Source: Bhargavaea cecembensis
GTDB lineage: Bacteria; Bacillota; Bacilli; Bacillales_A; Planococcaceae
Assembly: GCF_000826125.2 (NCBI RefSeq)
Contig: NZ_LN651371.1
Location: forward strand, 384,808 to 422,722
Direction of reading: 5' to 3'
Length of the DNA: 37,915 nucleotides
Shown here: positions 8,268 to 29,085 of the stretch, in pieces
How positions within the stretch are numbered: position 1 is the stretch's first letter
How the letters are laid out: each line of letters begins with the position of its first letter
The notes under the pieces: model-generated
The model's input: the letters and a program-made list of their open reading frames with translations, nothing else
Databases searched by the model: none
Told to the model about the DNA's origin: nothing
Program-made: the position numbers and the translations under genes

Positions 8268-8621
8268 GTTCCATATCCCCCCTTGCAAAAGCCGCTCCGA
8301 TGGACGCTTTGAACCTTACCTTCCTGTCTCAAACTATAGCACAGTATGAAACCGGTTTTTCCGGCGGCATGAAAGTTTTTCGCCGAATAGTTAATGAACC
8401 CGGTCCGGAACCCCCGACAGCCGCTCCGCTGTATAAAAAACCCTTCTTTCAAGGCCTTTCGGGATGTTTTCGGGCGAATCCTCCGATTTGCGGTTTTAAA
8501 CGATGCGTTTCAGGAAAGAGTGAAGGAAGGAAGTGGCGGCTTACCGGCTTTCTCACTTCTTCGCAGCAATACATAAGCGCCGGTCATCCGGCGCCTATAC
8601 ATGAAAAAGGAGGCATGCAAA
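8268..8621. other. Divergent intergenic region (354 bp)
   Basis: No convincing gene. On the minus side there is a candidate extended -10 (8333-8341) for the DUF2339 gene. On the plus side a perfect 7-bp hairpin (GCGCCGG 8577-8583, CCGGCGC 8588-8594, TCAT loop) lies just before the ribosome binding site of the next gene and could affect its messenger. A GTTTTA/GGAAAG pair near 8493-8518 resembles sigma-B elements only weakly. Confidence 0.4.
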
Positions 8622-9482
8622 ATGGCAGAACCCAATGATACGCAAACGCCGGGGAAAGGCGGAGTGGACCGCAGGACATTCCTGAAAAACTCGGGGCTGC
8701 TCGCCGGCGGCCTGATCGGAGGCGGACTTCTCGGAAGTCTCATCACAAATGAAGTCAAAGACAATGACAGCGGGACGAAAGGCGGCAGCACGGGCGATGA
8801 CGGCGGCACTGACCACCTGGCCGATGCACGCATCTTCTTCAACCGGCAGGAGGACTTCGAAGTACTCGCCGCCGCGACGGAGCGCATCTTCCCTGAAGAC
8901 AAAAATGGACCGGGTGCCATCAAGCTCGGCGTCCCTTATTTCATCGACCGGCAGCTCGCCGGCGAATGGGGCCTCAATGCGCGCGAATACATGAAGGGGC
9001 CGTTCCTGAACATCCCGGAAGCCAACCAATATGAAGATATGAGCCTGACATCCGAAGGCCGCGATGAACAGGGGCCGAGCGGTGATACCCTCAATCCGCT
9101 GCCGACTCCCCGCTATCAGACCCGCATGACACGGGCCGAAATGTTCGTCGTCGGCGTACGGGCCATCGACCAGGCGGCTCGCGAGAAATTCGATAAAGGC
9201 TTCAAGAGCCTGGAACCCGAACAGCAAGATGAAATCCTTACACACTTTGACAAGGACGAGGCGAAAATGCCCGGCGTCTCTTCCTCTACATTTTTCAATC
9301 TGCTTGCACAGACCACACTTGAAGGCGCCTACTCGGATCCTGTCTACGGCGGAAACCGGAATATGGACGGGTGGAGAATGATGGAGTACCCGGGACCGCG
9401 GGCGAGCTATGCGGACCAGATCGAGCCGGATGAATTCATCGTGCTCGAACCGCAGGGTCTCACCGACTATCAGGGGCATTAA
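8622..9482 (+). CDS. Gluconate 2-dehydrogenase subunit 3 family protein, Tat-exported
   Basis: Small (gamma-type) subunit of a membrane-bound sugar or polyol dehydrogenase, about 286 residues. The N-terminus has a textbook twin-arginine signal, DRRTFLK at residues 16-22, followed by a Gly/Leu-rich hydrophobic stretch. The mature part (about residues 70-270) shows the subunit-3 pattern with FLNIPEANQY and MTRAEMFVVGVRAIDQAA. The start is the ATG at 8622, eight bases after AAAGGAGG; an ATG at 8601 lies upstream of that site and would contain it. The FAD subunit follows 17 bases downstream. Folded export through the Tat system is expected, and tatA-tatC are in this window at 33-34 kb. Confidence 0.88.
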   Translation: MAEPNDTQTPGKGGVDRRTFLKNSGLLAGGLIGGGLLGSLITNEVKDNDSGTKGGSTGDDGGTDHLADARIFFNRQEDFEVLAAATERIFPEDKNGPGAIKLGVPYFIDRQLAGEWGLNAREYMKGPFLNIPEANQYEDMSLTSEGRDEQGPSGDTLNPLPTPRYQTRMTRAEMFVVGVRAIDQAAREKFDKGFKSLEPEQQDEILTHFDKDEAKMPGVSSSTFFNLLAQTTLEGAYSDPVYGGNRNMDGWRMMEYPGPRASYADQIEPDEFIVLEPQGLTDYQGH

Positions 9483-9499
9483 TGACTGGAGGAATGTAA

Positions 9500-11251
9500 A
9501 TGGCTAGGAAATTGGAAAAAGTCGATGTCGTGGTCGTCGGAAGCGGATGGGCCGGCGGCATCGTCGCAGCAGAAGCAGCAAAGGCGGGCCATAAAGTCAT
9601 CGTGCTCGAACGGGGCAAGAACAAGAAACGCTCAGACTACATCGGAGCAAAAGACGAACTGCGTTACACGGACCGTTTCGACATGATGCAGCCCCTCTCA
9701 TCAGAGACGATTACATCACGTGTCGGCATCGATGACACGGCGCTGCCCGTCCGCACCCAGCAGGAAATGATGGTGGGCGATGATCTCGGAGGCGGAAGCG
9801 TGCACTGGGCGGGCTCCACTTACCGTTGGCGTCCATATGACTTTGAGATCCGCTCCAAGACAATCGAGCGGTACGGCGAGGAAAAGATTCCGGAGGGCAG
9901 CACCATTGCCGACTGGGGCATCACATACGAGGAAATGGAACCCTACTACGATAAGTGGGAAAAAACCGCCGGCGTCTCGGGCGAGCCGGATCCGCTCGGC
10001 CCTCCGCGTAAAAATGACTGGCCGAATCCGCCGCTGAAGGAATCACCGCCGCTGAAGCTGTTCAAGAAGGCCGCGAAAGACCTCGGGTACCATCCATACC
10101 AGCTGGCAGCCTGCAACCTGTCCCAGGCCTACACGAATCCCGACGGTGAATCGCTGAACCCGTGCATGTACTGTTCTTATTGCACGATGTACGGCTGCGA
10201 CTTCAGCGCCAAATCAGACCCGCTCGCGACGGTCATCCCGACCGCCCAGAAAACGGGCAATGCCGATTTCAGGACGAACGCCCTCGTCCGACGCGTTCTC
10301 TATGAGGGCGGAAAGGCAACGGGCGTCTTGTACACGGATGTGCTGACGGGCGCAGAATACGAGCAGCCTGCAGATGTGGTCGTCCTGGCCGCATTCACCT
10401 TCTCGAACAACCGCCTCCTCATGCTGTCGGAGATCGGAGAACCGTATGATCCCAAAACCCGAAAAGGCGTGATCGGCAGAAACTTCACGATCCAGGGCGA
10501 CATCACTTTCCTCGGCGCAAGAGGATTCTTCGAAGACAAGAAGTTCAATCTGTACGCCGGGGCAGGCGCGCTCGGCGCAGGGCTCAGTGACTTCGATGCC
10601 GATGAATTTGACCATACCGATCTGGACTTCATCCACGGCGGCGGCATCGAGCTCCGCCAATACGGGTACGCGGCCATCGGACTGAACCACGTACCCCAGG
10701 GAACGAAGAAGTGGGGCGCCGAGTTCAAGGAGAAATCCTTGCATTATGCCTACCGGAACCTGAACGTCTGGTACACACCGGCCGTCATGTCCTACTGGCA
10801 CAACTACCTGAGCCTCGATCCGACGTATAAAGACGACTACGGCGATCCGCTCCTGCGCGTCACGAACAAGTACACTGACCAGGAGCGCAACATCGCAAAG
10901 TTCGGCATCGAGAAATGTGCACAGATCCTCGAGGAAATGGGCGCGGACATCATCGACAAAGATACGGTCGCGGATGACGAGGAGTTCGACCATATCTACG
11001 ACGGCGGCCACTACACAGGCGGCGTCATGATGGGACCGGATCCCGAAACGTCGGCGGTCAACTCCTACCTGCAGATGTGGGAAATGGAAAACCTGTTTGT
11101 CGTCGGCGGCTCCGCCTTCCCTCAATTCGGGAGCCATCACCCGACACCGACCATCGGGGCGCTCGGATACCGGGCGGCCGAAGGCGTCAATAAATACTTG
11201 GAAAGCGGCGGCATGCTCGTTGAAGCGAAAACCGCCAAGGCCAACGCCTGA
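9500..11251 (+). CDS. GMC-family FAD-dependent dehydrogenase, large subunit
   Basis: Flavoprotein subunit (583 residues) of a gluconate-2-dehydrogenase or sorbitol-dehydrogenase type enzyme, which oxidises a sugar, sugar acid or polyol. VVVVGSGWAGGIVAAEAA is the FAD-binding Rossmann motif. A second signature, GDDLGGGSVHWAGST, follows. The C-terminal GMC part has GSHHPTPTIGALGYRAAEG with the catalytic-type His. A CMYCSYCTMYGC cluster at about residues 222-233 is typical of this branch. No signal peptide is present, so export probably depends on the Tat signal of its partner. ATG at 9500 follows GGAGGA. No cytochrome c subunit gene follows; a terminator does. Confidence 0.9.
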   Translation: MARKLEKVDVVVVGSGWAGGIVAAEAAKAGHKVIVLERGKNKKRSDYIGAKDELRYTDRFDMMQPLSSETITSRVGIDDTALPVRTQQEMMVGDDLGGGSVHWAGSTYRWRPYDFEIRSKTIERYGEEKIPEGSTIADWGITYEEMEPYYDKWEKTAGVSGEPDPLGPPRKNDWPNPPLKESPPLKLFKKAAKDLGYHPYQLAACNLSQAYTNPDGESLNPCMYCSYCTMYGCDFSAKSDPLATVIPTAQKTGNADFRTNALVRRVLYEGGKATGVLYTDVLTGAEYEQPADVVVLAAFTFSNNRLLMLSEIGEPYDPKTRKGVIGRNFTIQGDITFLGARGFFEDKKFNLYAGAGALGAGLSDFDADEFDHTDLDFIHGGGIELRQYGYAAIGLNHVPQGTKKWGAEFKEKSLHYAYRNLNVWYTPAVMSYWHNYLSLDPTYKDDYGDPLLRVTNKYTDQERNIAKFGIEKCAQILEEMGADIIDKDTVADDEEFDHIYDGGHYTGGVMMGPDPETSAVNSYLQMWEMENLFVVGGSAFPQFGSHHPTPTIGALGYRAAEGVNKYLESGGMLVEAKTAKANA

Positions 11252-17510: not shown

Positions 17511-17535
17511 AGCGCCCCCCAAAAGGGACGGCGCT
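17511..17535 (-). terminator. Terminator after the hydroxylase-linked small gene
   Basis: AGCGCC (17511-17516) pairs with GGCGCT (17530-17535) with inner CCC/GGG pairing. It abuts the stop codon of the upstream minus-strand gene. The T-tail is short. Confidence 0.5.
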
Positions 17536-18035
17536 CAGTTCAGGTTCATCGGACACAGAACGATGATGCGGTATGGGACAGTTTGGGCGGGGATGCTTCT
17601 CGTTGACGGGCCATACAGCACGATTAAATCACGGTTTGCCGGATACTTTGTAAAAAGCTGCCCGTTCGTCGACAACACCAAAGTCGCCGGGGACAGATTG
17701 AGTTTCAGCATTTGGTCGCTGCTCACCAATTGGCTGTCATAGTGAGCGACTTTTACATTCTGTGCCGGATTATCTTTCACCATGACAAGCGCCGGATACT
17801 GCGGAGGGTAAATCAGGATTGCCGGTAAATCCCCGTCATAATAACCTGTCACCTGATCTCCCACGCGGATGATTTCATGGCCCACGAAATAAGTGGACGG
17901 CGAAACGACAAAGTTTACGATGGAACCGAATCCGTTCTCCATTGTAAACAGTTGATGGCAACCTTCGCTTCCGGGATTTATACCAAAGTCACTGATTGCA
18001 GTGACCGTGCCTTGAAATGCATAGAAATTTGTCAT
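17535..18035 (-). CDS. Conserved hypothetical protein
   Basis: Not recognised as a named family. About 166 residues, soluble, beta-rich, no signal peptide. The N-terminal half contains NFYAFQGTVTAISDFG and GSIVNFVVSPSTYFVGHEII, then VGDQVTGYYDGDLPAILIYPP, which reads like an OB-like or split-barrel domain. The C-terminal half (LKLNLSPATLVLSTNGQ, then DLIVLYGPSTRSIPAQTVP) looks like a second beta domain. The ATG at 18033-18035 is chosen because GGAGGGA lies nine bases upstream. It follows the HpaB-type hydroxylase by 32 bases on the same strand, so the two are probably co-transcribed. Confidence 0.7.
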   Translation of the reverse strand: MTNFYAFQGTVTAISDFGINPGSEGCHQLFTMENGFGSIVNFVVSPSTYFVGHEIIRVGDQVTGYYDGDLPAILIYPPQYPALVMVKDNPAQNVKVAHYDSQLVSSDQMLKLNLSPATLVLSTNGQLFTKYPANRDLIVLYGPSTRSIPAQTVPYRIIVLCPMNLN

Positions 18036-18067
18036 GTCATGACGTCCCTCCAATAACAAGATGAGGA

Positions 18068-19519
18068 CTACTGTTCATCTGTGATTCCCAAGAGCCTCCT
18101 GACCACGTTCACATATGGTTCCTTAGGATACTCATTATACAAAGAGCTGGCGATGCGGACCGGATCACCGAAAAAGTATCGTTCATACTGCATTCCCCTC
18201 GTTCCGAACGAACTCATCGTCAAATCCCAGGCCAGCCGGAAAATCTTCACCCGTTCTTCGGCGGATCTCGTGGCGCCTTGAAGATAGAGATCAAGGTCCG
18301 GCCTGATGCCGGAATGGAAAGCGGTCTCGGTCGGAATCGTAATCATTCCGCTGGCTCCGATGATCTGGATGATCTCAGTGAAGCGCGGATACAGCTTTGG
18401 AAACACGGCGCTTGCCGTATTCAGCGGAATCACATTTGGCCTCATCACGCCAAATTCATCGATGGCAGCATGGTTTTCCGCCTTCTCCAGCAATGCCTTC
18501 ATCGTTTCAAGGCCTATAATGATCTCCGATACTTTTTCCTGTATATGCTGGTAGCCATCCACCTTGATGGTTTCGGACAATAACTGGGCGAGCCCTAAAA
18601 TAAATTCGGTCTTCACAATTTGCCGTGTCACGACTTGATGCTTGGCAAATGCGTGAAAAGAACTACGCTTGATGAATTCTTCAGCCACTTCACCATCATT
18701 GTAATAGAACACCCGGTCCCAAGGGACCAAAACATTGTCGAACACAACAACTGAATCCATTTCCTCGTATCGCGCGCTTAATGGATGGTTGAACGGCGAG
18801 GACCCTCCGATGAATGTATCCCGGCAAATGAATTTCAACCCCTTCGCATTGGATGGGATTGAAAATGCAAATGCCTCGTCTTCATTGAATAGGAATTTGC
18901 CGACACTAAAAACAAGGACCTCATCGGTCAATCCGCCCTGTGTGGCGAGTAAACGCGCACCTTTGATGACAATCCCGTCCGGTTTCACATCCACCACTTT
19001 CGCAGCGATGGGTTCTTTGCTGGTTTCGACATAGATTTGGGAGCGGTTTACCTGCGGACTGACGAATGTATGAGTGAACGATAAGTCCTTTTCCCTGGCC
19101 TGTTTATAAAACGCAACAAGATTTTGCGGATAACTATTTTCCTTGCCCTCCAAAAACCCGGCGCAAGAAGCAAAGCTCATCAAGACAGAGTTCAAGTAAT
19201 CGGGACTTCTCCCCATCATCCCAAAGCTTCGGGCAGCCCAATGTTCCATCATTTCCCGTCTTCTTTTCAGATCTCCCATGCTTTTTGGCTGCATATACGA
19301 CAGTCCGATCGGATCACCTGTTTCAGGCGAACGAAACGTCATCTTGTCTTTGAACCGGGGATCGAGTTGCATGTCGTAGAGAGCCGCTTTTTCCCGGATG
19401 ATTCCCTTGAACACAGGGTGACTGGAAATCGGCCCTTCCACTTTTTTGCCGTCCAGCCAGATTTCATTGTTCAGGCTGTCAATTCGCTCGATGTACGCCT
19501 TCCCGTTGATGGCTCCCAC
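18068..19519 (-). CDS. 4-hydroxyphenylacetate 3-hydroxylase family flavoprotein
   Basis: Large, oxygenase-type component of the HpaB family (483 residues with this start), acyl-CoA-dehydrogenase-like fold. Signatures: an N-terminal HpaB_N region (AYIERIDSLNNEIWLDGKKV), FTHTFVSPQVNRSQ, DSVVVFDNVLVPWDRVFYY, and the C-terminal SFGTRGMQYERYFFGDP. Members use reduced FAD to hydroxylate phenols; related members act on 4-hydroxybutyryl-CoA, so the substrate is open. No HpaC flavin reductase gene is adjacent. The start is the GTG at 19517-19519, seven bases after AGGAG. A small unknown gene follows in the same operon. Confidence 0.88.
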   Translation of the reverse strand: MGAINGKAYIERIDSLNNEIWLDGKKVEGPISSHPVFKGIIREKAALYDMQLDPRFKDKMTFRSPETGDPIGLSYMQPKSMGDLKRRREMMEHWAARSFGMMGRSPDYLNSVLMSFASCAGFLEGKENSYPQNLVAFYKQAREKDLSFTHTFVSPQVNRSQIYVETSKEPIAAKVVDVKPDGIVIKGARLLATQGGLTDEVLVFSVGKFLFNEDEAFAFSIPSNAKGLKFICRDTFIGGSSPFNHPLSARYEEMDSVVVFDNVLVPWDRVFYYNDGEVAEEFIKRSSFHAFAKHQVVTRQIVKTEFILGLAQLLSETIKVDGYQHIQEKVSEIIIGLETMKALLEKAENHAAIDEFGVMRPNVIPLNTASAVFPKLYPRFTEIIQIIGASGMITIPTETAFHSGIRPDLDLYLQGATRSAEERVKIFRLAWDLTMSSFGTRGMQYERYFFGDPVRIASSLYNEYPKEPYVNVVRRLLGITDEQ

Positions 19520-19799
19520 TTGGTCACTCCTAATCAAAGTCTGGAGGCGATAGCACCGGATGGCCGCCCTTTCTATGCTATGCATCAGCCCGCTATTCCT
19601 GAACCCCGGAAAATTAAGCGGACATTGAAAATCATTGTGGTATTTCGTACTTTCCCTCTCCTGCAGCCGGCACTTTACGCATCCACCCGTCGGCAGATTG
19701 AGAGATTTGAACTATTGGAATGCTGCGGTTCATTGTTACACTAAGATAGGAGATCCACTCGTTGGATCAAACATCATTCAAAATAAATGGGGATTTGAG

Positions 19800-20865: not shown

Positions 20866-20904
20866 AAAGGCCCCTCCTCCATATCGCATGGAGGAAGGGC
20901 CTTT
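20866..20904 (+). terminator. Terminator after ykvI-like gene
   Basis: A 17-bp stem with one mismatch (20866-20882 with 20888-20904) and a tight five-base loop; its 3' arm ends in CCTTT, followed by CTTC. Confidence 0.85.
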
Positions 20905-21067
20905 CTTCGATGCGAAAGGTGGATAAGCTTAGATCCATTAATACAAGGAATGGCCAAACTTTATTATTAAGCCAGTCAATTCGCTCAAGGCGCATGTGCC
21001 TGATCCGCATCAGCCGGACAAGTTTCATTTGAGGACTGGGCGGAATAGCGTAGACGGAGGTGATCGG

Positions 21068-21484
21068 TTGGAACATCTGGTTCCGATTGCAGTGTACCTG
21101 GATGGCTGCCTGTTCATCGCCCTGTATGCGCACCTGTGGAAAGTGAGGAAGCGGGTCGGATTCCATCTGGGCATGAACATCAGTTTGGCCACGGGCGGCA
21201 TGGCTGCTCTGTTGTTTGGTGTTTTGCTCATCAACCAATATCCGTTTCATTTCACTTACATTACGATTTTATCAGCACTGGTCGGGATGGCTGCAGGCGC
21301 GTTGTTCGGCAGGCTGTTTGATTACCAGACTTTCGTCACCGGCCTGACGAATGGGATTGTCGCCGGGCTGATGGCACCGATGATCGGAACAGTCGTTGAC
21401 ATGCCTCTTTTGTTTATCGGCTGCCTTCACATTTTGTTTGTGCTCTGCCTCTGCGTGATCTGGATTTCCGTCATAAGGTCGTGA
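21068..21484 (+). CDS. mnxA: Small four-helix membrane protein, first gene of mnx-like operon
   Basis: A 138-residue hydrophobic protein with about four membrane segments. I do not recognise a domain. Glycine spacing in LVGMAAGALFGRLF and GLTNGIVAGLMAPMIGTVV suggests close helix packing. The start is TTG at 21068-21070, six to seven bases after GGAGGTGATC; upstream codons lack gene character. The symbol is assigned by position only: it opens a seven-gene run that matches the mnxA-G order of manganese-oxidising Bacillus spores. It resembles the next gene product in size and pattern. Possible role: metal or copper movement across the spore membranes; this is inference. Confidence 0.65.
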   Translation: MEHLVPIAVYLDGCLFIALYAHLWKVRKRVGFHLGMNISLATGGMAALLFGVLLINQYPFHFTYITILSALVGMAAGALFGRLFDYQTFVTGLTNGIVAGLMAPMIGTVVDMPLLFIGCLHILFVLCLCVIWISVIRS

Positions 21485-21490
21485 AGACGC

Positions 21491-21943
21491 ATGATGATCA
21501 TTTTAGGAGCGTTTGTATGGAGTGCGCTCGATGCCGGCAACATTTACCGGGTGTTCAGGAAAAAGCACCTTCTCTTTGATGACCGGTACTCGAAGACCAT
21601 GGGCACGGCGTTATCCTCCGTCACTTCACTTGTCATCGCCCTCTACCTCACCCTGCTTCTTCCCCCGTCCTGGCAGATTCCAGCTGCCGCAGCCGGCTTG
21701 TGGGTCGGTTGGAAATTCGGTTCATTCATGAAAGCGCCCGCTTCACTGGCCGGCATCTATCACGGGGCCATGGGCGGCATCATGGGGATGATGCTCGGTG
21801 CGGTGATCCTGAACCCCGCTCTATGCAAAGTGCCGATTGATACCGAAACGATGATCCGAATGAACTTGTACACGCTGACAATCTTCTGCGCCTGTCTCCA
21901 CGCACTTGTGATCCGGCTCGTCCGTCATTCGCTGAAAGCCTGA
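21491..21943 (+). CDS. mnxB: Small four-helix membrane protein, second gene of mnx-like operon
   Basis: A 150-residue protein with about four membrane helices. Key part: GLWVGWKFGSFMKAPASLAG followed by IYHGAMGGIMGMMLGAVI, a Gly/Met-rich helix pair. The Met-rich helix (GGIMGMMLGAV) and a Cys in the following loop could bind copper, but that is only suggestive. It begins six bases after its neighbour, with GTGAAGACGC as a weak ribosome site, so translation may be coupled. Symbol by operon position. It appears to be a diverged copy of the gene before it. Confidence 0.65.
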   Translation: MMIILGAFVWSALDAGNIYRVFRKKHLLFDDRYSKTMGTALSSVTSLVIALYLTLLLPPSWQIPAAAAGLWVGWKFGSFMKAPASLAGIYHGAMGGIMGMMLGAVILNPALCKVPIDTETMIRMNLYTLTIFCACLHALVIRLVRHSLKA

Positions 21944-21962
21944 ACATGGAAGGAGACTGTTG

Positions 21963-22541
21963 ATGAAGTTCCTTTGGGGGGCATCGGCCCTTCTGCTCGG
22001 TTTCCTGGCTGTGTTCTTTTTTTGGCCAAAAACTGTTGAACTGCCCCGCATGGGCACTGTTGGAGAGTGGCCGCTCACCGACCTGGAGGGCCATCATCTC
22101 CGGCAGCCGGAGAAGCCGGTATTGGTCACCTTTTTCTTCACCAATTGTCCGGACATCTGTCCGACGACCTTATTTGACCTAAAACAGCTGGATGCCGAGA
22201 TGAAAAGCCGCGGTCACTCACCTGATGATTATTTGGTCCTGGCCGTCACGCTGGATCCTGAATATGATACAAATGAGCGCATCCATGAATACAAGAATAA
22301 TCTCGGAATCGATGCCCCCAACTGGCTGTTTGCCCGCGGGAGTGAAGCGGACACAAGGCGCTTCACCCGTTCGTTCAACTTCATCTATTCAAAAGACGAA
22401 CACGGATTTGTCACCCATTCAACGTCGATGTATATCGCCGATGCAGACGGTGTTGTACGGGCGCATCATGACATGGCGGTCGGCAGCAACCGGGTCGACA
22501 TCGGACAAATTGCCGATCATCTGGATTCATTGATCAAGTGA
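21963..22541 (+). CDS. mnxC: Sco1/SenC-family copper chaperone-like thioredoxin-fold protein
   Basis: 192 residues: an N-terminal signal anchor (about residues 5-21), then a Sco domain. The copper/redox motif TNCPDICP supplies Cys62 and Cys66 (CxxxC), and His152 in VTHSTSMYIAD is the third ligand expected for the family. Sco proteins deliver copper to, or reduce cysteines of, copper oxidases; here the evident client is the multicopper oxidase four genes downstream. ATG at 21963 follows GGAAGGAGA. mnxC of the known manganese-oxidase operon is also Sco-like, which supports the operon assignment. Confidence 0.88.
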   Translation: MKFLWGASALLLGFLAVFFFWPKTVELPRMGTVGEWPLTDLEGHHLRQPEKPVLVTFFFTNCPDICPTTLFDLKQLDAEMKSRGHSPDDYLVLAVTLDPEYDTNERIHEYKNNLGIDAPNWLFARGSEADTRRFTRSFNFIYSKDEHGFVTHSTSMYIADADGVVRAHHDMAVGSNRVDIGQIADHLDSLIK

Positions 22542-22557
22542 ACGGGAGGTGAATGCA

Positions 22558-23289
22558 ATGCCAAACGAACAATCCGCCAAACAAGACAGACTTCAACCGA
22601 CATATGCGTCTCCCCTTCACACATCGCCGACCAGCGCGGTCCCGACTGAAGAAACAAGGGTTCTCACGGAGTACATCCAACAGAAAAATTTGTTCAGGGT
22701 GGCAGCGAGGGATGAGTCCCGGCGAAAGTTCATCATGCTCAAACAGTTCTTCAAGATGAAGCGGCATCAGCAGGTCGTCGTCAACTCTGCTCTGGATGAG
22801 GGCGAGCTCATCACGACCGAGGGCAAGGTCGCCGCCATCGGAAGAGATTTTGTCATGCTGACGGACATCCGGAAACGGATATGGATCCCCTATGCCGCAA
22901 TTGACTCCGCAACCATCCCCTATGGCTTCCCCACCTACTCGAACCCCCACCAGAACCATATTTATGACAATCAACTCCGGCAAAAGCTCATCTTGAACTT
23001 CGGCGAAACCGTGAGCTGCAGAGAGGAACTTGTCCGCCAGTTCTTTGAAGAGACCTTTCACACGAACCTGTCTTCCTGGAAAGGAACATGGGTTCAAACC
23101 AGGACGGCAGATCGATCTTACGTCGGCAGATTGGAAAAAGCGACAAAGAAAGCATGCACCATTCGTTCCTTCAGATCCGGCCGGCTCATCCCGATGGATG
23201 ATCTGCGTTTTGTTGAAGTTCTCAGTGGGACGGATCTCCTCAAACGGTTTGCCGGACAACTGATGCCAAAGGTGTTCAAAAGAAAATGA
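22558..23289 (+). CDS. mnxD: MnxD-like protein with two barrel-like domains
   Basis: 243 residues, soluble, basic, no signal peptide. The first 50 residues look disordered. Two regions share an Sm/SH3-like beta pattern: GELITTEGKVAAIGRDFVML with RKRIWIPYAAIDSA (about 83-120), and RSYVGRLEKATKKACTIRSF with GRLIPMDDLRFVEVL (about 187-222). I read these as two copies of a small beta-barrel also seen in the next two proteins; this is by eye, not by alignment. The ATG at 22558 lies seven bases after GGGAGGT. Symbol by position and context. Likely a structural or assembly protein of the oxidase complex in the spore outer layers. Confidence 0.65.
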   Translation: MPNEQSAKQDRLQPTYASPLHTSPTSAVPTEETRVLTEYIQQKNLFRVAARDESRRKFIMLKQFFKMKRHQQVVVNSALDEGELITTEGKVAAIGRDFVMLTDIRKRIWIPYAAIDSATIPYGFPTYSNPHQNHIYDNQLRQKLILNFGETVSCREELVRQFFEETFHTNLSSWKGTWVQTRTADRSYVGRLEKATKKACTIRSFRSGRLIPMDDLRFVEVLSGTDLLKRFAGQLMPKVFKRK

Positions 23290-23304
23290 TCGGAGGCGGC
23301 TGCT

Positions 23305-23595
23305 TTGAAAAAGGCGGAGGCAACTTTATTTGACTCGCTTCACGGAAAACTGGGGGAGGAAGTTTTGATCGTCACGAAGGCTGCGCAACTCAACTTACTG
23401 GGACAGGTGTTCCGTCCCATTTTCGCGGGGACCGTCCACGAAGTCACCCTGGGGCACATCACGCTCTGGCCGGTCATCATCAAAATGGTGAATGCCCCCT
23501 TCTACCAATTCCCTTTCCCGCTCAGCATCCCGTTTGAGCAGGTGGTGTCGTATTCAACTGAAATCCCGAGCGATCTGCAATTCCCCCTAACTTAA
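23305..23595 (+). CDS. mnxE: MnxE-like small subunit of manganese oxidase complex
   Basis: 96 residues (about 11 kDa), mostly beta. LGEEVLIVTKAAQLNLLGQV followed by FRPIFAGTVHEVTLGHITLW suggests a single small barrel. The start is TTG at 23305-23307, eight bases after GGAGG. In the characterised manganese-oxidase complex, two proteins of about 12 kDa (MnxE and MnxF) associate with MnxG and bind copper; size, order and adjacency agree here. Histidines in the middle (HEVTLGHI) are possible metal ligands. Assignment is by position and size, as the sequence itself is not diagnostic to me. Confidence 0.7.
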   Translation: MKKAEATLFDSLHGKLGEEVLIVTKAAQLNLLGQVFRPIFAGTVHEVTLGHITLWPVIIKMVNAPFYQFPFPLSIPFEQVVSYSTEIPSDLQFPLT

Positions 23596-23611
23596 CGAAG
23601 GAGGTCTTACA

Positions 23612-23920
23612 ATGGAAAATCCCATGGAGAACAAAACGATCAACGATGTCCGGGAAGAAGCGCTCATCAGCCACTTCAGGGATCACGCCGGGCAAAGGGT
23701 GTTCATCCTGACAGAGGCCTTCCCGTTCATGTTCATCGGCAAAATCAAGAGGGTGGTCGATGACATGGCTTTCCTGCATGTGGAGACCACGTCCGTTCCC
23801 GCCCTGGAGGGCAAGGAATGGTCGATCCACCTGGATTCGGTCGAAGTGTTTTATATCGAAAAAGAAAATGAAAACAAGATTCCCTTCCTACAGGATAACT
23901 GGAAAAGAGGGAGGCCATGA
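23612..23920 (+). CDS. mnxF: MnxF-like small subunit of manganese oxidase complex
   Basis: 102 residues, soluble, with the same layout as its neighbour: HAGQRVFILTEAFPFMFIGK, KRVVDDMAFLHVETT, then EWSIHLDSVEVFYIE. This fits a small Sm/SH3-like barrel followed by a short basic tail. ATG at 23612 has AAGGAGGT upstream. Its TGA overlaps the ATG of the multicopper oxidase gene (ATGA at 23917-23920), so the two are translationally coupled, as expected for subunits made in fixed ratio. Confidence 0.72.
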   Translation: MENPMENKTINDVREEALISHFRDHAGQRVFILTEAFPFMFIGKIKRVVDDMAFLHVETTSVPALEGKEWSIHLDSVEVFYIEKENENKIPFLQDNWKRGRP

Positions 23921-26900
23921 TCCGGAAGTTCCACGTCGTGGCGATTCCCATCCGCATGGTCATCAATACGTTCGGCGACCATAATCCGAATGGCATGATG
24001 TACGTCCTGAAAGAAAATGAAGAGAAAGTGAAGGAACTCGTCAAAAAAAACCCGTTCACTCCCGTCGACCTCGTCCAGCCGCTCATCATCCGGGCGAACG
24101 AGGGAGATACGGTGGAAGTTCTGTTGGAAAACAAGCTCAGCTTCCATGCAGGCCTTCATTTCCAGCAGGCGGAGTATGACCCGGATCAATCCGACGGCGC
24201 GCATGTCGGGCTGAATGACGACAGCACAGTTGCTCCCGGGGAAACCGGACTGTACCGGATTCATCCCGTAGAGGAAGGCATTTATTATTTCTCCGACCTC
24301 GGCAACCCGGCAAGCAGCGAAAACGGGTCGAACATCAACGGCTTGTTCGGGGCCTTGTTCGTGCAAAAACGTTTTTCCTGGTGGACAGACCCCGAAACCG
24401 GAAAACCGATGAATTCCGGCACCTATGCAGATGTCCATCATCCGCTCCTCCCCTCGTTCCGCGAATATGCATGGGTCTTCCACGATGAGATGGAAGTGAA
24501 AGACCTGACCGGGAACCGGCCGATCCACCACTTGACCAACCAGGAGGAAGCTTCGTTCCACGGGGCGAACTACCGGTATGAACCTGTGAACAGGCGGCAG
24601 CAGCTCATTTCGGAGGGAGTGGTCTGTCCCACCTGCGAGGGAGAGGAAGTCCACCATGATTCCTGGGTGTTCGGGGATCCGTCCGCTCCGATCCTGCGCG
24701 GCTATGTCGGGGATCCGGCAAAGATCCGCGTGCTTCACGCCGGCGTGAAGGAAACCCACGTTTTCCATTACCATGTTCATCAATGGCTGAGCGATCCGTA
24801 TGACCTGGAATCGGAAATCTTCGACTCGCAGGCGACCAGCCCGCAGACGCACTACACCGTCGAGCCGCTCTATGGTTTGGGCAGCATGCAGGGTTCATTC
24901 GGCGACTGCGTCATCCACTGCCATCTGTATCCTCACTTTGCGGCGGGCATGTGGGGGATGAACCGGGTGTTCAATACGCTGCAGGACGGCAGCCAGTGCT
25001 ATCCGAACGGCGTTCCGATCAAACCGCTCCAGCCGCTCCCCGACCGGAAGGCGCCTCCAAAGCCGACTGCAGAAAAGCCCGGCTTCCCGAATTTCATCCC
25101 CGGAAAAGTCGGTTTCAAGGCCCCCCGTCCGCCGCTCGGCATTGTCGGCGGGCGCGGGCTGACGGAGCTTGAGCGGCATGCGGCCATCGAAAACCCGAGG
25201 CCCGGAGCCGTATTCACAGATCCGTGCCCGCCGGAAGCGCCGGTCATGGAGCTGAACATTTCCGTGATCGAGCTGCCGATCACCTACAACCGGCACGGGT
25301 GGAATGATCCAAAAGGGCGGATCTATGTGCTCGATGAGGAGCTGGAAGATGTCTGCTCCGGCAAGAAAGCCCCCGAACCGCTCGTCATCCATGCGCCGGC
25401 CAACACCTGTTTCAGGATCAACTATACAAACCGCCTGCCGCACGTGCTTGACGGAGATGCATTCCAACTTGTGACCCGGACATATGAGAACGGATTCCAT
25501 ATCCATTACGTCAAGTTCGATGTACTCGTGAATGACGGGGCCAATGTCGGCTGGAACTATGATTCCTCCGTCCTGCCGGGAGAAACGATCCGGTATTCCT
25601 ACTACGCGGAGTCCGAGCTGAAAGCCTGGTTTTTCCATGATCACCTGTTCCCGAACTCCCACCAGCAGCACGGCGTTTTCGGAGCCGGCGTGGTGCATCC
25701 GCGCTTCACCGAGTTCGTGGATTCCAAGACCGGGAAGCCTGTCGTCCACGGAACAGAAGTGACCTCCCAAAGCCCATTGGTACCGGATCAGCGTGAATAC
25801 GTGCTGTTTGCCCAGGACTTCACGATGCTGTTCGACAAAAACGGAAGACCGATCCAGCCTCCGAGATTCCCCGGATCAGATGATGACCCCGGCTTGTTCG
25901 CAGTGAACTACAGGAATGAGCCGCTGCAGTTCCGACTGGGACCGGACTGTGATCCCGCCTATACGTTCAGCTCCTATATGAATGGAGACCCGTTCACCCC
26001 CGTATTCAAAGCCTATCAAGGAGATTCCATCCGGATCCGGCTCCTTCAGGGTTCTCAGGAGGAATCCCACAGCTTCAACCTTCACGGACTGAGATGGCAC
26101 AAAAGACGAGGCAGCCTGAATTCGTTCCTCGATGATCAGCAGCATATCGGAATATCCGAATCGTTTTCCGTGGAAACGTATATCGCCGGAGCAGGAGATT
26201 ACTTCTGGGCGTTTGAAACGGTGGAGGACCTGTGGAACGGACTCTGGGGACTGATCCGCGCCTATGATGAAAAAGTGCCGGATCTCATCCCGCTGGCCGA
26301 TCGCCCGGTGCCGCCGGAACGCTCGAAACCTTTGCCCGAATGTACGGGCGATAAGCCGCCGCAGGCTGAAGGTCCCGCCTTGGTCCCGCACGGCCAAGGA
26401 CCGCTCCGCAAGTTCGATATCGTCGCGTTCCAAGTCCCGATCGAGTACAACAACTACGGCGACCATGATCCGCACGGCATCGTCTTTGCCCTGCAGGAAG
26501 ATGTGGAGGCCATACTCTGCGGGAAGAAAAAACCGGAACCGCTCGTCATCCGGGGGAACGTCGGCGATACGGTGGAAGTGACCCTCACGAGCCGGCTGGT
26601 ACCGGAAAAGTTTCCGTTCAAGGACGGCATTTATCCGTATCCGACAGTGAAGGAACAGGCCTTCTATCCGCCTTCGCTCCGGGTCTCGCTCCATCCGCAG
26701 CTGATCCAGTATGACGTGAGAAACTCATCTGGCGAAACGGTCGGCTTCAACGGCGACCAGACCGTCGGGCCGGGGGAAACGAGGACATACCGGTGGATTG
26801 TGGATACTCCGGTCGGCGTCTGCGGCCTGTGGGACATGGCGGATATCCGCAACCACAAACTGCACGGGGCGTTCGGCGCTTTCGTCGCAGAACCGAGAGG

Positions 26901-27558
26901 AACGAGTTATCTGGATCCCTATACGCTGAAGCCGATCAAGTCCGGTGCAGTTGCCGTGCTGCGCAATCCGCTTCTGCCGGTCACACGGGAATTGGTCCTC
27001 GTCATGCATGACGGCGTTCGGCTTCTGGATAAGAACGGGCAACTTATCTTCGACCCGGTGGACGGGATTTTGCTGCCGCCCCCGGAACTCGATGAAGATC
27101 TCCTGGATACGTATGATCAGGGGTCCCGCGGCTTCAACTACCGCTCGGAGCGCTTGATCAACCGGTACAGGGAAAAGCCGTTGCTTCAGGATTTGTTCAG
27201 TTCGCGCACGTTCGCCGATCCGGCCACTCCTCTTCTGGAGAGCTACCCGGGGGATCCGGTGACGATCCGTCTGGCAGCCCCGGCAGACCGCAGGCGCTCC
27301 CACACGTTCACCCTGCATGGCCACCGGTGGAACTTCGATCCGAAAAACATCAACTCCCGCACAGAATCATTTCTCGGATTCAACTTATCAGGGGCCACGA
27401 GAGATATTGAACTGCAGGGAGGCGCGGGGGCCTTCGGAAACCGTCCGGGTGACTATCTGTACCGCTCCGGCAATATCCGCTGGGACATCGAACAGGGCAT
27501 GTGGGGAATCCTCCGGGTCCACGGAGAGCCGGATGAACGCCTGCCCCGCCTGGAATAA
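23917..27558 (+). CDS. mnxG: MnxG-like multicopper oxidase (manganese oxidase)
   Basis: 1213 residues, close to the 1217 I recall for MnxG, built from repeated cupredoxin-like domains; several begin with a similar strand (VVAIPIRMVINTFGDHNPNG, VIELPITYNRHGWNDPKGR, VAFQVPIEYNNYGDHDPHG). Copper motifs: THVFHYHVHQW (His281, His284, His286) and HCHLYPHFAAGM (His334, Cys335, His336, His340, Met345), the type 1 and part of the type 2/3 sites. Later come FHIHY (His528, His530) and FHDHLFPNSHQQHG (His574, His576). The two motif pairs are thus in reverse order to laccases, as in MnxG. Two more HxxxxLHG motifs lie near 718-728 and 1129-1136. No signal peptide. Expected reaction: Mn(II) to Mn(IV) oxide with oxygen, at the spore surface. 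ATG at 23917 follows GAGGGAGG. Confidence 0.9.
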   Translation: MIRKFHVVAIPIRMVINTFGDHNPNGMMYVLKENEEKVKELVKKNPFTPVDLVQPLIIRANEGDTVEVLLENKLSFHAGLHFQQAEYDPDQSDGAHVGLNDDSTVAPGETGLYRIHPVEEGIYYFSDLGNPASSENGSNINGLFGALFVQKRFSWWTDPETGKPMNSGTYADVHHPLLPSFREYAWVFHDEMEVKDLTGNRPIHHLTNQEEASFHGANYRYEPVNRRQQLISEGVVCPTCEGEEVHHDSWVFGDPSAPILRGYVGDPAKIRVLHAGVKETHVFHYHVHQWLSDPYDLESEIFDSQATSPQTHYTVEPLYGLGSMQGSFGDCVIHCHLYPHFAAGMWGMNRVFNTLQDGSQCYPNGVPIKPLQPLPDRKAPPKPTAEKPGFPNFIPGKVGFKAPRPPLGIVGGRGLTELERHAAIENPRPGAVFTDPCPPEAPVMELNISVIELPITYNRHGWNDPKGRIYVLDEELEDVCSGKKAPEPLVIHAPANTCFRINYTNRLPHVLDGDAFQLVTRTYENGFHIHYVKFDVLVNDGANVGWNYDSSVLPGETIRYSYYAESELKAWFFHDHLFPNSHQQHGVFGAGVVHPRFTEFVDSKTGKPVVHGTEVTSQSPLVPDQREYVLFAQDFTMLFDKNGRPIQPPRFPGSDDDPGLFAVNYRNEPLQFRLGPDCDPAYTFSSYMNGDPFTPVFKAYQGDSIRIRLLQGSQEESHSFNLHGLRWHKRRGSLNSFLDDQQHIGISESFSVETYIAGAGDYFWAFETVEDLWNGLWGLIRAYDEKVPDLIPLADRPVPPERSKPLPECTGDKPPQAEGPALVPHGQGPLRKFDIVAFQVPIEYNNYGDHDPHGIVFALQEDVEAILCGKKKPEPLVIRGNVGDTVEVTLTSRLVPEKFPFKDGIYPYPTVKEQAFYPPSLRVSLHPQLIQYDVRNSSGETVGFNGDQTVGPGETRTYRWIVDTPVGVCGLWDMADIRNHKLHGAFGAFVAEPRGTSYLDPYTLKPIKSGAVAVLRNPLLPVTRELVLVMHDGVRLLDKNGQLIFDPVDGILLPPPELDEDLLDTYDQGSRGFNYRSERLINRYREKPLLQDLFSSRTFADPATPLLESYPGDPVTIRLAAPADRRRSHTFTLHGHRWNFDPKNINSRTESFLGFNLSGATRDIELQGGAGAFGNRPGDYLYRSGNIRWDIEQGMWGILRVHGEPDERLPRLE

Positions 27559-27567
27559 AAAGAAACG

Positions 27568-27600
27568 AAAAAAGAGAAGCCGGCTCCCTTCTCTTTTTTT
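27568..27600 (+). terminator. Terminator after mnxG
   Basis: AAAAAAGAGAAG (27568-27579) pairs with CTTCTCTTTTTT (27588-27599) ending in seven Ts. The next gene begins only 36 bases on, so read-through could still express it. Confidence 0.85.
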
Positions 27601-27635
27601 CTACATACATCTGACATAGAAAGGAGGGATAAAAA

Positions 27636-28295
27636 TTGCAAAAGGAATGTAAACTGCTTGGCTGTCCAAAACGGCCATCTTCCCCCCAGTTTCCTTCCCC
27701 GACGGATTGCCTGCCGGAAGGGGAGCTGGAGGAACTGCTCGGACGCATTGAAGAGGCCAATGAACTGTTGCTGGATCTGGCATTGGAGGATGGCCGCCCG
27801 TCCGATGAAGTATTCCGCGGCGCGTTTGACGGCCTCTTCGGCCGGCACGTTGAAGTCGCCACACTCGAAGACGAATCCATCAAAGGAACTGTCAAACTTG
27901 CCGGGTTTGACTTCACGCTGCTGGAAGACGGCAAGGAAAGCGCAGTGCTCCTGCCTTACGGACAGATCAGGGAAATCTCGCTTGCCGGATGTGCCGCCAG
28001 CCCGCCTCCGGTGCCCGGCTTGATCGGTACCGATGTCTGCCTGCGCAGCAGCCTCGTTTCCTGCTTCGGAGCGACCGTCTCTTCTTCGCCTGAGCTGATC
28101 CACCTGTTTTTCAGGATGCGCCTGCCTGTTTATCTGCTCACTCTGGAAGGCAGCCGGCTTGAGATCACAGTGGACCACAACCGGATGGAAGGCCTGCTCA
28201 CCGACGTCAACCGGGAAACCATCGTTTTGAAGACGGGGAAAGAAAGAAAAATTATTCCGATCGGGCACATTACGCTTGTCCGCGTGAAGCCGTGA
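27636..28295 (+). CDS. Unknown protein with two Sm/SH3-like repeats, next to mnxG
   Basis: 219 residues, acidic, soluble. The N-terminus has three cysteines (ECKLLGCPKR and TDCLP) and then a helix (about 30-52). Two barrel-like repeats follow: LFGRHVEVATLEDESIKGTV to LLPYGQIREISL (about 66-120) and RMRLPVYLLTLEGSRLEITV to IIPIGHITLVRV (about 165-217). This is the same pattern as in the MnxD/E/F-like proteins; the DUF2642 (YuzF-like) spore-coat-associated group is a possible relative. The start is TTG at 27636, after AAAGGAGG. It may be a further structural partner of the manganese oxidase; no function can be stated. Confidence 0.65.
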   Translation: MQKECKLLGCPKRPSSPQFPSPTDCLPEGELEELLGRIEEANELLLDLALEDGRPSDEVFRGAFDGLFGRHVEVATLEDESIKGTVKLAGFDFTLLEDGKESAVLLPYGQIREISLAGCAASPPPVPGLIGTDVCLRSSLVSCFGATVSSSPELIHLFFRMRLPVYLLTLEGSRLEITVDHNRMEGLLTDVNRETIVLKTGKERKIIPIGHITLVRVKP

Positions 28296-28335
28296 AAAAC
28301 AGGAAGCCGGCCTGAGGAGCCGGCTTTCTGTTTTT
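28295..28335. terminator. Bidirectional terminator between convergent spore-type genes
   Basis: Stem 28295-28311 with 28319-28335 (AAAAACAG...CTGTTTTT outer ends, one mismatch). It touches the stop codons of both converging genes. Confidence 0.85.
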
Positions 28336-29029
28336 ATTGGTCTCCCCGTTGTTCGCAGTGCCCGAAGACGACCTCCAAATAGGAGATCCGGTCAACCGGG
28401 AAAATGAGCGACCGCCCTTTGGAGTGAGGACGCTTCTTTAATACATACTTGATATTCTCTCGCCTTTTTGCGGCCGAAGCCGGTTTTTTCATCAGCCTCC
28501 CCTTCATCTGAGCGTCACTGTCCATCATGGAATGCCGGTCAATCTGCATTTCCACAAAGTTGGAGCCGACCGCCATCAGGGTGCCTTTCACCTCTTCCCC
28601 GCTGTCCAGGCTGAACTTGACCTTACAGCCGGTCAGGCGGTGGAGCCGGTGGACCAGTCCGTCCTGCAGATCCGCAAGACGCACGGAAAATCCGGTGCTG
28701 CAGAGATCATTCCGGCAACCGCAATGGCAAGTTCCACAGTTGCAGCCTGAACCATGCCCGCAGCTGCACCGGCCCTGTTTGCGTTCACCGCATCGGCAGT
28801 GTCCGCCGGAACGGGAATCCTTGCAGCCGCAGCCCCGGTTGCCGAGCCCCGGATGGTCGGATCCATCCCCGCGGCTATGATGTTTCGAACAATCACAGGA
28901 ATGTCCTCCATACGGCTTTCCGCACGTGCAGGCATGGCTGCCGTCCTTCCGCTCACAGCCGCACTCCTTGCAGTCCTGCAGTCTGGAACAGCCGCATGTC
29001 TCTTTAGTGCTGAATTTATCAGGTTTCAT
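28334..29029 (-). CDS. Cysteine-rich CxC protein with C-terminal Sm-like domain
   Basis: 231 residues in two parts. Residues 1-110 hold 21 cysteines, mostly as CxC pairs (12/14, 23/25, 34/36, 45/47, 67/69, 78/80, 88/90, 96/98, 101/103/105) plus many His and Gly: metallothionein-like or cross-linking coat-like. Residues about 125-220 form a barrel-like domain (GCKVKFSLDSGEEVKGTLMA, VGSNFVEMQID, then SLIFPVDRISYLEVVF), like the units in the mnx-region proteins. It has a very good sigma-K promoter match, so it is probably made in the mother cell and placed in the coat or exosporium. ATG at 29029 is eight bases after GGGAGG. Metal binding or thiol cross-linking are both possible. Confidence 0.75.
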   Translation of the reverse strand: MKPDKFSTKETCGCSRLQDCKECGCERKDGSHACTCGKPYGGHSCDCSKHHSRGDGSDHPGLGNRGCGCKDSRSGGHCRCGERKQGRCSCGHGSGCNCGTCHCGCRNDLCSTGFSVRLADLQDGLVHRLHRLTGCKVKFSLDSGEEVKGTLMAVGSNFVEMQIDRHSMMDSDAQMKGRLMKKPASAAKRRENIKYVLKKRPHSKGRSLIFPVDRISYLEVVFGHCEQRGDQ

Positions 29030-29056: not shown

Positions 29057-29085
29057 TAATATATGTCCGCATTTGAGCGGGCGGT
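29057..29085 (-). promoter_or_regulatory. Sigma-K (mother-cell) promoter of Cys-rich gene
   Basis: On the minus strand CATATATTA (29057-29065) is a perfect match to the -10 CATAnnnTA. ACC (29083-29085) stands 17 bp upstream, as the -35 AC element requires. Transcription would start about 20 bases before the ATG. Confidence 0.65.

Follow-up and report, generated by a model that had tools for sequence, protein, structure and literature searches.

The window analysed here is a 37,915-nucleotide stretch of Bhargavaea cecembensis DNA (assembly GCF_000826125.2, contig NZ_LN651371.1, positions 384,808 to 422,722). It contains a block of genes that, judged by its sequence, is a new copy of the known bacterial spore manganese-oxidase set mnxA to mnxG, followed by two companion genes. 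The seven mnx genes lie on the + strand. mnxA (21068–21484) and mnxB (21491–21943) encode small membrane proteins of 138 and 150 residues that carry hydrophobic segments; tblastn cross-matches in relatives mark MnxA as a paralogue of MnxB, and mnxB has orthologues adjoining mnxA in relatives. The mnxA start is a TTG at 21068 behind a good Shine–Dalgarno sequence, GGAGGTGA. mnxC (21963–22541; start read as ATG 21963, with TTG 21960 as an alternative) encodes a Sco-type copper chaperone with a CPDIC motif and, by hydropathy, an N-terminal hydrophobic segment. mnxD (22558–23289; start read as ATG 22558, alternatively GTG 22549) encodes a 243-residue Sm/SH3-like protein, assigned through orthologues in relatives and through its paralogue MnxH. 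mnxE (23305–23595) and mnxF (23612–23920) encode subunits of the Mnx hexamer, and mnxG (23917–27558) encodes a large multicopper oxidase of 1213 residues. The intergenic gaps from mnxA to mnxF are 6, 19, 16, 15, and 16 bases, and mnxF and mnxG then overlap by the four bases ATGA.

This layout agrees with the original prediction of seven same-strand genes in this order, separated by at most about 20 bases and ending in an ATGA overlap; all reading frames are open. The genome was also described as GC-rich, which holds in moderation, the 2-kb stretches of the window having 48.9 to 60.5% GC. The operon had been called complete with A to G, and there the prediction stopped too early, because two further genes belong to the conserved locus, which is co-inherited as far as 29029. 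One, for which we coin the name mnxH (27636–28295, + strand), encodes a 219-residue paralogue of MnxD with two predicted Sm/Hfq-like barrels. The other (28334–29029, − strand, convergent with mnxH) encodes a Cys/His-rich protein of 231 residues with 23 Cys and 13 His, whose Cys/His-rich part is the N-terminal half and whose C-terminus is predicted to form one such barrel.

MnxG aligns with chain A of PDB entry 9bxa, the Mnx complex of Bacillus sp. PL-12, at 2001 bits across residues 1–1213, and is identical to MnxG of Bacillus sp. SG-1 at 886 of 1213 positions (73.0%). The next PDB rows, two-domain laccases and copper oxidases, score no more than 31.4 bits, which rules out an ordinary laccase. 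Throughout an alignment of 83 rows, each above 2000 bits, residues H334, C335, H336, H340, and M345 of the motif HCHLYPHFAAGM (334–345) are invariant, as are the HxH motifs H284/H286, H528/H530, H574/H576, and H1134/H1136; H81 (80 of 83 rows) and H1129 (75 of 83) are less constant. The HCHxxxHxxxxM and HxH motifs are presumably copper sites. Entry 9bxa is titled as an H340A mutant, and H340 is intact in the window protein. In the MnxG tree, the window protein falls within a supported set that includes SG-1.

MnxE has a single PDB match, the MnxE of 9bxa (chain B, E 2.2e-29; alignment of 26 rows), and the top match of MnxF is the MnxF of the same entry (chain E, E 7.8e-22; alignment of 27 rows). 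The next row for MnxF, a zinc-finger protein at E 5.9e-4 with five repeats each below 5 bits, was taken as a chance match. MnxC belongs to SCO1/SenC (PF02630, E 3.3e-21). Matches of this strength are well outside what chance would give. A PDB search with MnxD up to E 10 returned no match; single members of its family matched the Pfam families RimP-C SH3 and DUF2642 (3 of 42 each), and a profile search located its orthologue at the corresponding position of the SG-1 locus (L050), where genes A to G stand on one strand in the same order. The identities first proposed therefore stand: two small membrane proteins at the head, a Sco protein, MnxE- and MnxF-type small proteins, an oxidase whose best solved relative is MnxG itself and not a non-Mnx enzyme, and the gene order of the marine Bacillus operon. 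The D, E, and F products do resemble Mnx proteins, E and F through 9bxa and D through the SG-1 locus.

Linkage and predicted folds of two companion genes

Gene content was compared across 80 loci, namely the window and 79 named loci drawn from the best 80 of 126 confirmed stretches; distant relatives are under-sampled, and flanks are cut in 15 loci (window counted). Genes were labeled with iterated hidden Markov models by best-score assignment, the D and H profiles cross-matching. Alignments A2–A6 used 39 of 45, 35 of 49, 42 of 65 (with the window start set to 22558), 26 of 64, and 27 of 75 rows. The counts omit L010–L016, six of which duplicate contigs already among the named loci; L016 (genome G025) is included in the genome counts below. 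Across the 80 loci, mnxG was found in 80, mnxF in 78, mnxE in 74, mnxH in 70, the Cys/His-rich family in 67, mnxD in 66, mnxA or mnxB in 63, and mnxC in 41. Both companions are present in the SG-1 locus. mnxH lies on the same strand directly behind a mnxG in 54 loci. Its starts across loci are the first possible ones, making the figure of 21 in 54 for an overlap or a gap of no more than 5 bases an upper bound; we used only four checked cases, L068, L071, L072, and a Priestia plasmid, where the mnxH ATG overlaps the mnxG stop as ATGA. The junction in L076 reads TAATG.

The association extends to whole genomes. MnxG is present in 44 of 250 family genomes, which are related and not independent, so that no p value is attached to the counts. 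Strong MnxH-profile matches (E ≤4.1e-54) occur in 42 of the 44 MnxG-positive versus 0 of the 206 MnxG-negative genomes, and by their listed coordinates all 42 lie on the same strand as mnxG and within 250 bases of it. The two MnxG-positive genomes without a strong match (G025 and G143) each have only a D-type match. Among MnxG-negative genomes the profile found one D-type match, in G242, and this contains a stop. The Cys/His-rich profile (E up to 1e-6) matched 36 genomes, 35 of the 44 MnxG-positive ones and G242 (1 of 206 MnxG-negative); nine MnxG-positive genomes lack the gene. In G242 (C8:86313–87432) the interrupted D-type gene lies near the Cys/His-rich family gene without mnxG, probably as a mnx locus that has decayed. 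Among the 61 relatives of an earlier set, strong MnxH matches and the Cys/His-rich gene coincided in seven genomes; G025 there has MnxG and neither companion, and two weak MnxH-profile matches (E 5e-4 and 7e-4) occur in other genomes.

Five distant loci (L067, L069, L075, L076, and L095), which form a single group with support of 96 in the MnxG tree, have E, F, G, and H together with a gene of the Cys/His-rich family; A, B, C, and D were not found within 10 kb. In L073 and L091, mnxH stands directly ahead of E-F-G, with mnxD behind on the opposite strand. Thus mnxH and the Cys/His-rich gene track E-F-G more than they track A to C, and slightly more than D. Together, these data indicate that both genes belong to the mnx locus, 21068–29029.

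Two further observations concern individual loci. The record of L095 is titled Tissierella creatinophila, an anaerobe, and represents either a real locus or a mis-assigned contig. Two mnxG genes lie within about 23 kb in L033, L036, L051, L058, and L059; the copies in L033, L058, and L059 pair in the tree and are therefore duplications within a lineage.

MnxH and MnxD are full-length paralogues (hhalign 99.8%, E 2e-29, 205 columns). The predicted model of MnxH (predicted local distance difference test score 87.5) has two Sm/Hfq-like barrels joined by a helical segment, and that of the Cys/His-rich protein has one at the C-terminus, which aligns with MnxH (hhalign 96.4%, E 1.2e-9, 58 columns). 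MnxD, MnxH, and the Cys/His-rich protein are thus predicted, from models and profiles, to share an Sm/Hfq-like barrel. Fold matches of MnxH place the spore-coat protein GerQ (8zra) in a tie with Hfq rows, further families being possible beyond the rows shown. In the B. cecembensis locus L031 (15106–15807), the Cys/His-rich protein has near-perfect repeats of the GGCKG-CHGQ type, likely a metal-binding array.

Expression signals and genomic setting

Sigma-K-like −10 elements were sought with CATANNNTA, which we assume to be the consensus. One lies within 60 bases before the Cys/His-rich gene in 29 of 66 loci, compared with a mean of 2.2 and a maximum of 7 in 200 shuffles; because the shuffles control for base content alone and the loci share ancestry, this enrichment is not a probability. 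In the window the element is CATATATTA (29057–29065, − strand), 36 bases upstream of the gene start. Corresponding counts are 8 of 70 before mnxH (shuffle mean 1.6, maximum 6), 11 of 75 before mnxE (2.0 and 7), 2 of 79 before mnxF, and 0 of 87 before mnxG. TRGGY, which we take to be part of the GerE consensus, occurs 20–55 bases upstream of the element before the Cys/His-rich gene in 12 of the 29 cases (shuffle 1.7). Before mnxA, 24 bases upstream, the window has a weak candidate, AATAGCGTA (21044–21052, + strand), one mismatch from the sigma-K-like −10; the Filibacter locus L020 has CATAGCGTA at the same distance.

Between mnxG and mnxH, at 27567–27600 (+ strand; −13.1 kcal/mol, z −3.2), is a hairpin that resembles a terminator and has a U-rich 3′ arm; the pattern scan lists it on the − strand only. 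The search of mnxG–mnxH gaps missed this hairpin, and its yield of 9 in 54 is a lower bound. A palindromic stem (28304–28326), seen in the sequence and by the pattern scan, separates the convergent mnxH and Cys/His-rich genes. Upstream of the block, a palindrome 3′ of the ykvI-like gene was seen by eye and was not listed by the terminator scan; the operon start is not based on it. That gene, named in the original prediction, had no Pfam match at E up to 0.01.

Bhargavaea, of the family Caryophanaceae/Planococcaceae, has reportedly been described without spores. Literature passages on the question (PMC6971209, PMC9781867) neither confirm nor deny this. SpoIVA and CotE score above cut-off in eight of eight genus genomes, including that of the host (G000), and a host lacking sporulation genes is accordingly rejected. 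The best host match to the sigma-K model scores 282 bits and misses the cut-off of 298.65, as do those across the sampled family; the model matched 61 of 61 genomes and 11 of 14 controls and discriminates by score only. Full-length MnxG occurs in 8 of 46 SpoIVA-positive versus 0 of 15 SpoIVA-negative genomes, too few for a claim; a ninth match of the MnxG search (G055, 20 bits) is not MnxG. The host assembly is rated 6.7% contaminated. Two equal-score sigma-factor matches and a fragment stand in tandem at G000:C3:1067591–1070864, possibly duplicated during assembly and so contributing to the contamination figure.

The genes flanking the block are 90.7–98.9% identical in protein sequence to those of G003, whose groEL DNA is the closest within the genus, with lower values for prsA (88%), gdhG (83%), and p174 (82%); a 35% match to an ABC protein in G003 is a different gene. 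This near-identity places the block in host DNA. In G003 the sequence left of window position 20904 is 93% and that right of 29222 is 89% identical, and in place of the 8.3-kb nine-gene block stands a gene for a 1411-residue TPR protein (L106, 3506–7741). In B. cecembensis and B. massiliensis, the window's flanking genes were not found within 10 kb of mnx. The MnxG tree (FastTree) groups the window with Sporosarcina luteola (support 100) and two other Bhargavaea rows with Rummeliibacillus and Ornithinibacillus (support 100). These observations suggest that the whole module was acquired by transfer, the simplest reading; loss and replacement could produce the same pattern. Third-position GC (0.61–0.71) lies inside the range of eight neighboring genes (0.50–0.80) and does not mark the block as foreign. 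Searches for repeats inside each block end and for words of at least 9 bases shared between the ends found none bearing on mobility, and we therefore claim no transposon mechanism.

Plasmid copies of mnx were found in four Priestia megaterium records. On plasmid NZ_CP085418.1 (94780–114421, L113), D, E, F, G, and MnxH occur together with A (or B) and a relative from the Cys/His-rich family, next to a CopC/CopD gene; apart from MnxG and CopC, the products are annotated as hypothetical. The plasmid collection also returned full-length MnxG relatives at 33–35% identity (H5–H10) from haloarchaea (Natronococcus, Halalkalicoccus, and Haladaptatus) and actinobacteria (Nonomuraea and Pseudonocardia). 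Elsewhere in the window, translations at 8601–11251 look by eye like two-subunit GMC-type gluconate or sugar dehydrogenase genes, and 17535–19585 holds an HpaB-type 4-hydroxyphenylacetate hydroxylase gene with a small unnamed partner. This pair stands beside the ykvI-like gene in six of seven genus stretches, the seventh being a cut contig.

Working model and alternatives

We propose that 21068–29029 is, very probably, a nine-gene spore manganese-oxidase module, an assignment made from sequence comparison. In such a module MnxC would deliver copper, and MnxE and MnxF would assemble into a ring-like, copper-carrying E3F3 hexamer on which MnxG is held. In the outer spore layers the complex would oxidize Mn(II) via Mn(III) to Mn(IV) oxide with oxygen. 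We infer the expression of the block in this strain and the roles of the remaining proteins: MnxA and MnxB, probably in the mother-cell membrane, would act in loading or export; MnxD and MnxH could cap the complex or anchor it in the spore surface; and the Cys/His-rich protein could be a surface partner, possibly binding metal in the window species as a copper store or as a binder of Mn or mineral. A broader proposal, for and against which we find the case about evenly balanced, is that the machinery of the spore manganese oxidase extends beyond the E3F3G complex studied to date, with Sm/Hfq-like barrels (D, H, the Cys/His-rich protein, and divergent E and F) surrounding one oxidase. Its core would be E-F-G-H plus the Cys/His-rich protein, with A to D optional, and the two overlooked proteins would assemble, metallate, or anchor the enzyme.

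Several findings weigh against the nine-gene module. The link of MnxE and MnxF to the other barrel proteins is weak: hhalign gives 28% for H–E, 2% for H–F, 5% for D–F, and 10% for the Cys/His-rich protein with F, compared with 80% for E–F, so that a profile link of MnxH to either is not shown, and Foldseek matches the Cys/His-rich model to 9bxa chain E at E 0.034 with a root-mean-square deviation of 9.1. MnxH is missing from 10 of the 80 loci. In six of these the contig is cut or the genome has two mnxG loci, an explanation that does not reach L032, L041, L056, and L060. Among loci with full flanks, L032, L056, and L060 have D and no H, and L041, L052, L062, and L087 have neither; the last three are each one of two mnxG loci in their own genome. 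L016 has A, D, E, F, and G only, with B, C, H, and the Cys/His-rich gene not found in 16.4 kb, and the G179 match to the Cys/His-rich profile contains five stops. Cys counts in the Cys/His-rich family run from 3 to 40 over 72 rows, and the Priestia plasmid relative, of 141 residues, has 4 Cys and 5 His; the barrel is therefore the family trait and the Cys/His array variable, and metal binding cannot be family-wide. The element before the window mnxA has its mismatch, and mnxH in the window may be a separate transcript: given the hairpins on both of its sides, it may be made at a different level from mnxG. MnxG also scores 313.5 bits against NCBIfam NF041487 (copper_ox_MnxG, 1894 positions; cut-off 3100), which rules out membership in a family that we take to be the proteobacterial MnxG, not the Bacillus one.

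Other explanations of the locus draw on parts of the same evidence. MnxH and the Cys/His-rich protein might be ordinary spore-coat proteins that merely adjoin mnx, as the shared barrel fold of GerQ and the hairpins that part both genes from mnxG would allow. We consider this unlikely, because the companions are almost absent from MnxG-negative genomes, their linkage is kept when gene order changes (L073, L091, and L094), and mnxH overlaps the mnxG stop in the four checked cases. More improbable still is that the block is intact yet silent or useless, having been acquired recently by a bacterium that sporulates rarely if at all. The different gene at the G003 site, the grouping of MnxG with S. 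luteola, and the reported description of the genus without spores fit such a history; SpoIVA and CotE in all eight genus genomes, a sigma-K-model match whose sub-threshold score is that of the whole family sample, open reading frames throughout, and third-position GC within the neighbors' range all speak against it. The substrate, for its part, is not readable from sequence, and full-length MnxG relatives at 33–35% identity exist in haloarchaea and actinobacteria, so the enzyme might be Mnx-type by descent and act naturally on another metal or an organic compound. Given the 73% identity to the SG-1 enzyme, the intact copper motifs, the retention of E and F, and the place of the window MnxG inside the supported set holding SG-1, we regard this as the least probable of the alternatives, and we retain the nine-gene manganese-oxidase module as the preferred interpretation.

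Beyond the A–G set, which was already known, the analysis adds two companion genes that are seldom missing and the barrel family. A literature search found no paper tied to mnxH or the Cys/His-rich gene, the founding SG-1 paper lying outside its coverage. The companions almost never leave the locus, even where A to D are missing, and could account for the way in which the oxidase acquires its metal or is attached to the spore. If MnxE and MnxF prove to be Sm/Hfq-like, accessory proteins said to lack known homologues would gain a structural origin. The spread of the locus in Sporosarcina, Paenisporosarcina, Bhargavaea, and others, and on Priestia plasmids, suggests that the trait moves between spore formers.

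Comparison with known systems

Few multicopper oxidases are known to have Mn(II) as their main substrate, and the PL-12 Mnx is the one that has been expressed in active form, according to passages of PMC5622069. As described there, it is an E3F3G complex that requires mnxEFG, was made from an mnxDEFG construct of which E, F, and G were used, and belongs to a system in which spores carry out the oxidation. All three of its subunits are matched by window proteins (PDB 9bxa); unlike the window locus, the complex in those passages consists of E, F, and G, without MnxH and the Cys/His-rich protein.

The S. luteola loci (L017 and L092) hold the closest named MnxG among the best 80 of 126 stretches (81% identity) and have the same nine-gene order, whereas the window's non-mnx genes were not found within 10 kb of them (E up to 1e-10). 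NF041487 MnxG shares with the window enzyme a name and the multicopper-oxidase type but, as a 1894-position model, represents a different family. MnxH resembles Hfq/Sm-like proteins and GerQ in its predicted barrels and differs from them in having two barrels with a helical segment and no Pfam match over cut-off; the likeness implies no RNA role. The SG-1 mnxABCDEFG locus, in another genus, shares with the window the A–G order on one strand, a MnxG of 73.0% identity, and both companion genes; it differs in its mnxG–mnxH gap of 15 bases, in which the search flagged no hairpin with a T-run.

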